From contig NZ_NEDJ01000011.1 of the NCBI RefSeq assembly GCF_002114285.1, positions 1 to 64,000 of the forward strand: a stretch of DNA of 64,000 nt, in the 5' to 3' direction. The DNA is from Halorubrum ezzemoulense DSM 17463. Lineage in GTDB: Archaea; Halobacteriota; Halobacteria; Halobacteriales; Haloferacaceae. The translations under genes were made by a program, and so were the position numbers. How positions within the stretch are numbered: position 1 is the stretch's first letter; the number at the start of each line of letters is the position of its first letter. The notes below the pieces were generated by a model, which saw nothing but the letters and a program-made list of their open reading frames with translations, made no database searches and was not told the origin of the DNA. This document shows positions 26,853-30,524 of this stretch, in pieces.

Positions 26853-27288
26853 CGGTGTTTCCGGGACATCGGTCGGCGGAGAGGGCAGTCTGACACCGCC
26901 GAGATATCGATTCCGTCGAGGAACCGCGAGACGGGTTGACAAACGTCTACTTCTGCCGACGAGGCCGGAACGACCCGAATTCGGGACGGAGAGCCCGTCC
27001 GACGCCCAAGCGCGGGACGGCGGTGCGGCAATACTCGCCAGAGGGGACCGCGCCCGCCCCGAGAACGCCGCTCGGCGACGGATCACGCCGAAATAGATAG
27101 CTGAGCTACACAACGACCGTCGAGTTCGAGCGCAACAATTGCGGCGGAACCGCGAGAAAAACGTCCTTATATTCCATAGCCACGTCCTTATATCGGACGA
27201 CCGCCGTATTATCAACCGTGTTTTTTGTGAAACTCAACTCTAACGTTTATGTATAGGCGTTCCCGGAAATCGAAACGTGATTCAGCAC
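26853..27288. promoter_or_regulatory. Long intergenic region with direct repeats before amt
   Basis: No gene is recognised in these 436 bases. The left part is featureless G+C-rich sequence; from about 27100 it becomes A+T-rich. A perfect 12-bp direct repeat ACGTCCTTATAT occurs at 27161-27172 and 27182-27193, spaced 21 bases start to start (two helical turns), which looks like a regulator site or twin promoter. A further TATA-like gtttatgta at 27245-27253 lies about 40 bases before the leader ORF. Nitrogen-responsive control is plausible from the downstream gene. Confidence 0.55.
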
Positions 27289-27351
27289 ATGAACACGAGC
27301 GAAGCACGGTTTGAATCGGACGAGCGTTCAGTAGAGGTGGATGAATTGTGA
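27289..27351 (+). CDS. 20-residue leader ORF overlapping amt start
   Basis: ATG 27289 opens a 20-codon frame ([20 protein letters not shown]) whose TGA (27349-27351) overlaps the GTG start of the transporter as GTGA. The last codons include GAGGTGGAT, which resembles an archaeal Shine-Dalgarno site about 8-10 bases before the transporter GTG. This arrangement suggests translational coupling: ribosomes finishing the leader would re-initiate on the transporter. The peptide has no recognisable function. It could instead be fortuitous, or translation could start only at 27348. Confidence 0.45.
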
Positions 27352-29075
27352 CGGGCGGCGTCCTCGCCACGATCGATCCGAGCACGTTCGCGTCCGCGAT
27401 GAACGGGACGTGGATCCTCGTCGTGACGTTCCTCATCTTCTTCATGCACGCCGGCTTCGCCATGCTGGAGGCCGGGCAGGTGCGGTCGAAGAACGTCGCC
27501 AACCAGCTGACGAAGAACCTCCTGACGTGGAGCGTCGGGGTGGCGGTGTTCTTCCTCATCGGCACGGCGTTCACGAGCCTCGTGAACGGGTCGTCGGGGA
27601 TCGCCTCCGCCGCGGGATCGCTGTACTCCGGCGGCGAACTCGCCGTCGAGTCGGGCGTGGTCGGTCCCTACGTCAACTGGCTCTACGGCGCGGTGTTCGC
27701 GATGACCGCAGCGACGATCGTCTCCGGGGCGGTCGCGGGTCGCGCGAAGCTCCGCGCGTACGTCACCTACACGTTCCTCCTGGCCGCGGTCATCTACCCG
27801 ATGGTCATCGCCTTCACGTGGTCGGCCTCCGGTGACGGGCTCGTCGCACAGCTGACGGGCACCGCGTTCCACGACTTCGCCGGCGGCATGATCGTCCACG
27901 GCATGGGCGGCATCGCGGGCCTCACGGCCGCGGCCATCCTCGGGCCGCGGATGGACCGCTACGGGAAGGACGGCTCGACGAACGTCATCCCCGGTCACTC
28001 GCTGACGTTCGCCGTGCTGGGGACGCTCGTCCTCGCGTTCGGCTGGTACGGCTTCAACGTCGGCACGGCGTCGGTGGTCAGCGGCGGCGTGTTCAACACG
28101 CTGACGCTCAACCTCGTCGCGATGGGGACGACGATCGCGATGGCGTCCGGCGGGATCGGCGCCGCGCTCGTCGTCTGGGCGAAGACCGGGAAGGTCGACA
28201 CCCTCTACGTCGCCAACGGCCTGCTCGCCGGGCTCGTCGGCATCACCGCAATCCCCGACACCACGGCATGGTGGGGCGCCGTCGTCGTCGGCGGGCTCGC
28301 CGGCGCGCAGCTCCCGATCGTCTTCGAGTTCGTCTCGGACAACCTGAAGATCGACGACGTCTGCGCGGTGTTCCCGGTTCACGGGAGTGCTGGCGTTCTC
28401 GGGACGCTCCTCTTCCCGTTCGTCGCCGCACCGGGTCAGCTCAGCGCGGGCATCGGCGCCCACTTCGTCGCTCAGCTCGTCGGCGTGGTCATCATCGGCG
28501 GCTGGACGATCACCGCAACCGGTGCGGTCTGGTACGTGCTCAAGCTCGCCGGCGAGGCGCGCGTCACCGCCGAGCACGAACAGGAGGGCCTCGACATCTC
28601 GGAACACGGCGTCGAGACCTACCCCGAGTTCGGCGGCGACCGCGTCGCGACCGACGGCGGCCCGTCGGTGATCGACACGACCGAGTCCGATGGGGAGTCT
28701 CCCCGGGCCGATGGCGGCGCGGCGGCCGGCACGGACATCAAGATGGTCACGGCGGTCGTCCGCCCCGACAAGCTCGGAGACATCAAGCAGGCGCTCGCGG
28801 AGATCAACGCCCCCTCGCTGACGGTGACGAACGTCTCCGGTCGCGGCAGCCAGCCCGCGAAGAAGGGCCAGTGGCGCGGCGAGGAGTTCACCGTCGATCT
28901 CCACCAGAAGGTGAAAGTCGAGGTCGTCGTGGCCGACATCCCGGCCGACGAGGTCGCGGACGCCATCGCCGACGCCGCGAAGACCGGCGAGGCCGGCGAC
29001 GGCAAGGTGTTCATCATGCCGGTGGAGGACGCGCTCCAAGTCCGCACCGGTGCGACCGGAACGGAGGCGGTGTAG
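27348..29075 (+). CDS. amt: Ammonium transporter fused to PII (Amt-GlnK)
   Basis: A 575-residue fusion. Residues 1 to about 420 are a full Amt channel with eleven membrane helices, including [36 protein letters not shown] (first pore His) and [14 protein letters not shown] (second pore His), plus the complete Amt tail [18 protein letters not shown]. After an acidic linker (about 432-463), residues 464-575 are a PII protein: [20 protein letters not shown]-loop [17 protein letters not shown], and B-loop [11 protein letters not shown]. The usual uridylylated Tyr51 is Phe, while Gln39 is kept. Normally GlnK is separate and blocks Amt reversibly; here the ratio is fixed at one per subunit. No separate glnK is adjacent. 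Confidence 0.95.
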
Positions 29076-29186: not shown

Positions 29187-30524
29187 ATGAACCACGAGCG
29201 CTCGCGCGAGTTGTACGACCGCGCGCTGTCGGTCATGCCGGGCGGCGTCAACTCTTCGGTCCGGGCGACGATGCCGCACCCGTTCTTCGTCGAGCGCGGC
29301 GACGGCGGCCACGTGATCGACGCCGACGGGAACCGCTACGTCGACTGGGTGATGGGGTACGGCCCCCTCCTTTACGGCCACGACCTGCCCGACCCGGTGG
29401 AGGCGGCGGTCCAGTCGCACGTCGCGGAGGGACCGATGTACGGCGCGCCCACGGAGATCGAGGTCGAACACGCCGAGTTCGTGGCGCGGCACGTCCCGAG
29501 CGTCGAGTCGATCCGCTTCGTCAACTCCGGCACGGAGGCGACCGTCTCGGCGGTCCGACTGGCGCGCGGCCACACCGACCGCGACAAGATCGTCGTGATG
29601 CGGGGCGGCTACCACGGCGCGCAGGAGTCGACGCTCGTGGAAGGGTCGCCGGGCGACGCGCACCCGTCGACGGCGGGGATCCCGGAGGCGTTCGCCGAGC
29701 ACACCCTGCCGATCCCGTTCAACGACCCGCAGGCGGCGAAGGAGGTGTTCGCGGAACACGGCGACGAGATCGCGGCCGTGATCGTCGAACCGATACTCGC
29801 CAACAAGGGGATCGTGATGCCCGTCGACGGCTACCACGAGACGCTGCGGGACCTCTGTGACGACCACGGCTCGCTACTGATCTTCGACGAGGTGATCACC
29901 GGGTTCCGGGTGGGCGGCCTCGGCTGCGCCCAGTCGAAGTTCGGCGTCACCCCCGACGTGACGACGTTCGGGAAGATCATCGGCGGCGGCTTCCCGGTCG
30001 GCGCGATCGGCGGGAAAGCGGAGATCATCGAGGGGTTCACGCCCGCTGGCGAGGTGTTCCAGTCCGGCACCTTCTCCGGGCACCCGGTGACGATGGCCGC
30101 CGGGAAGGCCGGGCTGGAGTACGCGGCCGAAAACGACGTGTACGAGCACGTCAACCGCCTCGGTCGGCAGCTCCGGGAGGGGATCGCCGAGATCTGCGCC
30201 GAGCGCGCGCCGGAGTACACCGTCGTCGGCACCGACTCGATGTTCAAGACGGTGTTCACCCGCGAGGCGCCGGACGACGTCGACGCCTGTTGCGCGGGCG
30301 GCTGTCGGCAGGACCCGGACTGCGCCCGGTACGACTCGTGCCCGAAGACGGGCGCCGACGTGGCCGACGCTGCGACCGACCGCTGGGAGCGGGTGTTCTG
30401 GCAGGAGATGAAAGATCGAGGCGTGTTCCTCACCGCGAACCAGTACGAGTGTCAGTTCACTTCCTACGCGCACACGGAGGAGGACGTCGAGACGACGCTC
30501 GAAGCGTACCGCGAGGCGCTGTAG
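29187..30524 (+). CDS. hemL: Glutamate-1-semialdehyde 2,1-aminomutase
   Basis: A 445-residue class-III PLP enzyme making 5-aminolevulinate for haem and cobamides. It begins with the HemL motif [18 protein letters not shown] and has [31 protein letters not shown] and the PLP lysine in [18 protein letters not shown]. Residues about 367-391 form a cysteine-rich insertion ([20 protein letters not shown]) absent from E. coli HemL; its five cysteines could bind metal or form an iron-sulfur site. The C-terminal [17 protein letters not shown] is normal. TATA-like elements are weak upstream. Confidence 0.94.

Follow-up and report, generated by a model that had tools for sequence, protein, structure and literature searches.

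The textbook case of ammonium channel control is the pair AmtB-GlnK, in which a soluble regulator plugs a membrane channel and, in proteobacteria, its release is tied to uridylylation. In the E. coli complex (PDB accession codes: 2nuu, 2ns1) the trimeric partners meet 1:1 as separate proteins, and GlnK is released with the uridylylation of its Tyr51 by GlnD. The pairs AmtB1/GlnK1 and AmtB2/GlnK2 of Haloferax mediterranei (PDB accession codes: 4ozj, 4ozl, 4ozn) are also encoded by separate genes; following an ammonium shock, GlnK is bound to AmtB1 there (PMC3831643), and Tyr51 of this PII is reported to be uridylylated by work that the same article cites. In Ks-Amt5 (PDB accession code: 6eu6), an Amt that does not transport is fused C-terminally to a signalling domain, a histidine kinase.

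Here we consider a locus in which the channel and the PII regulator are encoded as one chain. It lies in the window (the whole stretch of DNA that was analysed, 64,000 nucleotides of Halorubrum ezzemoulense DSM 17463), and the features of the gene are as follows.

27348 to 29075, plus strand: gene of the Amt-PII fusion (575 aa), from a GTG start to a TAG stop (open frame and Pfam)
27411 to 28622, plus strand: Amt channel domain (PF00909), aa 22-425, with the pore residues F117, W158, D176, H184, F236 and H345 kept
28560 to 28631, plus strand: conserved Amt C-terminal region, aa 405-428 (alignment with E. coli AmtB and invariant columns)
28632 to 28733, plus strand: acidic, Gly-rich linker, aa 429-462, with two DGG motifs, predicted disordered
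28734 to 29072, plus strand: PII domain, aa 463-575, with the PF00543 match at aa 465-568
28845 to 28901, plus strand: PII T-loop, PII positions 37-55, with Gln39 = aa 502, Arg47 = aa 510 and Phe51 = aa 514
28887 to 28889, plus strand: codon TTC of Phe514, at the site of Tyr51 in E. coli GlnB

The first-pass annotation had described a complete Amt with its conserved tail, joined through an acidic linker to a full PII domain, and the Pfam matches and the alignment bear this description out. The match to Ammonium_transp (PF00909) covers aa 22-425 and positions 2-399 of the 399 in the profile (E 2e-94, 317 bits vs the cut-off of 23.2), while that to P-II (PF00543) covers aa 465-568 and positions 2-101 of 102 (E 1.7e-26, 92.9 bits vs the cut-off of 25). 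The Amt C-terminal region aligns with that of E. coli AmtB through the motif EGLDxxxHG (EGLDISEHG here, EGLDVNSHG in AmtB). In the PII half, using the numbering of E. coli GlnB, we find Gln39, Arg47, Phe51, Lys58 and the B-loop GDGK (aa 550-553), which confirms the earlier readings of Gln39, GDGK and Phe51. The conserved Amt C-terminal region, the T-loop Arg47 and the GDGK B-loop are thus held in common with the E. coli pair, whereas the single chain, the Phe at position 51 and the lack of GlnD are not.

The frame is unbroken from 27348 to 29075, with neither a stop nor a frame break across 28560-28760. Because each of the 52 genomes of the genus that contain PII independently shows the identical fusion frame, a sequencing error or an assembly artefact is ruled out. 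Named Halorubrum genomes match at 90-95%. Across its 155 contigs the genome itself, which is 99.87% complete, encodes a single PII and a single Amt, both of which are the fusion gene; neither a second glnK nor a separate Amt is found in it.

Judging from the sequence, we think it quite probable that this protein is a haloarchaeal version of the AmtB-GlnK ammonium uptake gate, with regulator and channel in one chain and driven by ATP, ADP and 2-oxoglutarate. Three such chains would assemble into a trimeric channel, and the flexible linkers would hold a PII trimer on its underside. Under ample nitrogen, with 2-oxoglutarate low, the T-loops would plug the three pores; on binding of 2-oxoglutarate and ATP, the T-loops would withdraw and ammonium would flow. 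Covalent modification of position 51 would have no part in this gating, and it is reasonable to infer that the gating is purely ligand-driven. The twin-His pair (H184/H345), the Phe gate (F117/F236), W158 and D176 are invariant in 39 fused homologues, as aligned to 6eu6 and AmtB. R47, K58, D88, G89 and K90 are invariant across the PII domains compared, 157 distinct fused ones and 76 free ones, and Q39 is present in all but one. The nearest solved PII is 4ozj (185 bits), a GlnK of Haloferax mediterranei, and its T-loop is near-identical to that of the fusion. The AlphaFold2 monomer has a moderate mean pLDDT of 72, with residues 415-462 below 50 (disordered) and part of the T-loop also below 50; the Amt half of the predicted monomer matches Amt structures by fold.

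Among solved structures, those closest to the Amt half are the sensor Amts Ks-Amt5 (6eu6) and Sd-Amt1 (8qj3), which score above E. coli AmtB both by sequence (184 and 162 bits vs about 114 for AmtB) and by fold. The question is then whether the protein might be an ammonium sensor, whose Amt half would bind ammonium and so alter the PII joined to it, and that PII would signal to other targets. In Ks-Amt5 the residues F27, Y30, F34, E31 and D50 are tied to the pore block or to an extra ammonium binding site (PMC5764959). In our alignment F27 and E31 have their counterparts in F37 and E41 of the fusion, but Y30, F34 and D50 correspond to L40, Q44 and T60, and only two of the five key residues are kept: the aromatic positions (F27, Y30, F34) read F37, L40 and Q44 here, and the acidic pair (E31, D50) reads E41 and T60. 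The output domain of Ks-Amt5 is a histidine kinase and not a PII; in the genome studied here, the fusion is the sole Amt and no other fused output domain is present. We regard the sensor as decidedly unlikely and read the Amt half as a putative channel.

Even as a gate, the protein might need a third partner, fused or not, of the kind of the small adaptor sP36 of Methanosarcina. In M. mazei sP36 is required for the binding of GlnK1 to AmtB1, its homologues are reported in halophilic archaea, and it occurs where GlnD is missing (PMC10714827); GlnD was not found in our genome either. The tether, however, would by itself raise the local concentration of PII, and we consider it unlikely that such an adaptor is needed. 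The ligand-driven gate made of a single chain is the reading that we follow below.

How common is this arrangement? The first-pass annotation had supposed that separate amt-glnK pairs are usual in haloarchaea, and this supposition fails. Among the 373 species genomes of the class Halobacteria that were placed, 220 have only the fused form, 134 have only the split form and 19 have both, where "fused" means an open frame of at least 530 aa (a length cut-off), and fetched sequences were confirmed by both domains in one frame. The fusion is the commonest Amt/PII arrangement in the class, and the gene studied here is an unexceptional instance of a design that is widespread; with 220 fused-only genomes, the idea of a rare oddity is ruled out. 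Within the genus, PII is found in 52 of 53 genomes and in each of these 52 it lies inside a frame of 559-620 aa; reading all 52 sequences, we find every PII to be fused and to carry Phe51. One incomplete genome of the genus additionally holds a free PII. In the phylum outside the class Halobacteria, no frame longer than 248 aa is found among the matches listed, and no relative of the fusion is found among viral contigs.

The architecture is not unique to haloarchaea, since the unrelated Bacillota share it. Plasmid records of three species carry both domains, Amt and then PII, in a single gene of 570-601 aa: Enterococcus raffinosus (WP_222227351.1), Ruminococcus albus (WP_013483901.1) and Monoglobus pectinilyticus (WP_320691151.1). 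They differ from the haloarchaeal gene in an identity of only about 33-36% along the full length of the query, in having Val or Ile at position 51, and in their linkers. In the bacterial records examined the design is annotated merely as "ammonium transporter", and the Monoglobus gene sits directly downstream of glutamine synthetase III. A search of open-access full text returned no description of an Amt-PII fusion; most subscription journals lie outside this search, so that "undescribed" is unproven.

Some haloarchaea have two Amt-PII fusion genes near each other on one contig (L251; G391, G237, G381). Two other copies are apparently broken: in one (G123) the Amt is divided into two pieces and the PII is truncated, and in the other (G312) the PII match is split in two. 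In 12 of 12 tested haloarchaeal genomes without PII, Amt is absent too. This joint absence fits a PII that serves the channel, and it suggests that the channel is all that PII serves in haloarchaea.

The split loci provide a view of how the fusion may have arisen. In these loci glnK lies directly 3' of amt; the spacing is within -8 to +4 in all 64 distinct junctions, and 55 of them are overlaps of 4 or 8 nt. The tails of the split Amt proteins end in YPEF...DGG...RTDGG, and like motifs appear in the fusion linkers, which range in length over 17 to 72 residues depending on the species and contain at least two DGG motifs in 147 of 154 distinct cases. Since the split tails carry the motifs of the linker, a small frame change at the amt-glnK overlap would yield a linker of this kind, and the fusion probably arose in this manner many times in the class. 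In an Amt-domain tree of 192 rows (FastTree), the fused label has to change 14 times, and well-supported branches force at least 10 of these changes; the changes (about 10-14) count fusions and fissions together, without telling gains from losses.

A linker that is predicted to be disordered, and that is so variable in length, might also be a place where the chain is cut after synthesis, so that PII becomes soluble and the Amt is left as an ordinary one; the fusion would then just secure their production in equal amounts. In Haloferax, Flag-tagged AmtB1 has indeed yielded a C-terminal fragment, with the cut placed before the last membrane helix (PMC3831643). No conserved cleavage motif was noticed in the linkers, however, and the recurrent DGG motifs also end the split Amt proteins, so they need no role in cleavage. 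Equal amounts would hardly call for a fusion either, as coupling is already achieved by the overlap in the split genes. We find cleavage very improbable and keep the intact, tethered gate as the preferred reading.

The first-pass annotation had further taken Phe51 to make release of the uridylylation type impossible. The Phe itself stands, and neither Tyr51 (it is Phe514) nor GlnD, the marks of a PII uridylylated in the proteobacterial manner, is found here. The weight given to Phe51 for the gating of a fused protein does not stand, as all 136 rows of fused PII from outside the genus keep Tyr51. Among 220 rows of fused PII (redundant between collections), Phe51 is found in 84, all within the genus, and Tyr51 in the other 136; Tyr51 is also found in all rows of free haloarchaeal PII examined. 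Phe51 is fixed in the genus (52 of 52 genomes) and absent from every other haloarchaeal PII examined. Fusion thus does not bring about Phe51, and by this distribution Phe51 is a trait of the genus, separate from the fusion design. The GlnD family (PF08335) has no match in the genome; the same search finds it in E. coli and does not find it in Haloferax volcanii, Methanosarcina or Methanocaldococcus. Because there is no such match, canonical uridylylation would be absent even if Tyr51 were present. An enzyme other than GlnD might possibly uridylylate haloarchaeal PII, given the modification reported for Haloferax mediterranei, and Phe51 would bar such a modification in this genus.

While the fusion is shared by the genus, the channel half is not of one kind in it, and one further feature has to be added.

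27341 to 28720, plus strand: proposed Halonotius-like replacement of the Amt half, in the species group vs the rest of the genus, with edges at roughly 27341-27400 and 28661-28720

Compared to a relative from the genus (L126), identity is 97-99% in the flanking radA, hemL and argG and 86-95% in the PII domain, whereas it is just 36-88% by segment in the Amt core. Against Halonotius (L061) the pattern is inverted, with 70-100% for the Amt core and 71-80% for PII, and the steps in DNA identity fall at about 27341-27400 and 28661-28720. For the Amt core, a constraint of genus unity is rejected (p-AU 0.00017, a value somewhat favourable to a swap since the comparison was chosen after the tree was seen); for the PII domain it is not rejected (p-AU 0.74), and that tree, with stars on 5 of its 44 inner branches, is poorly resolved and so simply fails to reject the unity of the genus. 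Because of the identity steps, the reversal between L126 and Halonotius and the contrast in p-AU, a swap of the Amt in place is most likely: recombination would have replaced the channel module beneath a retained leader and regulator. The leader, the PII half and the flanking genes are typical of the genus, and the Amt half alone resembles Halonotius. The downstream glutamate-1-semialdehyde aminotransferase-like gene (29187-30524) has a Cys-rich stretch, and a similar one is present in L114.

The leader just mentioned consists of two features upstream of the fusion gene.

27246 to 27255, plus strand: TATA-like box TTTATGTATA, centred about 26 nt upstream of the leader-ORF GTG (sequence and relatives)
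27277 to 27351, plus strand: short leader ORF of 24 codons, GTG start, internal ATG at 27289, TGA stop at 27349-27351

A similar box of the TTTAT type is found at an equal distance across 30 relatives from the genus. The position of the box, about 26 nt before the leader ORF, suggests a leaderless transcript. The TGA of the leader ORF (27349-27351) overlaps the GTG start of the Amt-PII gene, and this geometry is widespread. Among 73 dissimilar fused loci, the end of the upstream ORF lies at an offset of +1 relative to the start codon in 36 and of -2 in 18, with at most 7 at any other offset; in 45 loci of free amt the same offsets account for 19 and 11, with at most 8 at any other. The stop/start overlap upstream of fused and free amt genes recurs in most lineages of the class. 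A conserved peptide is not supported: within the genus, codon position 3 is not more variable than positions 1 and 2, and the synonymous share is barely above expectation in any frame. What is kept is the open frame and its stop/start overlap. The simplest reading is that the leader ORF is translationally coupled to the fusion by termination-reinitiation, a process shown for overlapping genes in Haloferax volcanii (PMC6728339).

We put forward, tentatively and as a reading that may well prove too broad, that in most of the PII-bearing haloarchaeal species placed, every PII is a permanent subunit of the channel, with a leaderless coupled ORF that sets its dose and a channel half that is an exchangeable cassette. 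If this is true, there would be no soluble PII pool in such cells, and PII would be a pure channel gate and not a general nitrogen signal. The removal of soluble PII raises the question of how glutamine synthetase and the other targets of PII are controlled in these archaea. With a fixed ratio of regulator to channel, no modifiable Tyr and no GlnD, the fusion would serve as a natural single-chain test of gating by ATP, ADP and 2-oxoglutarate alone.
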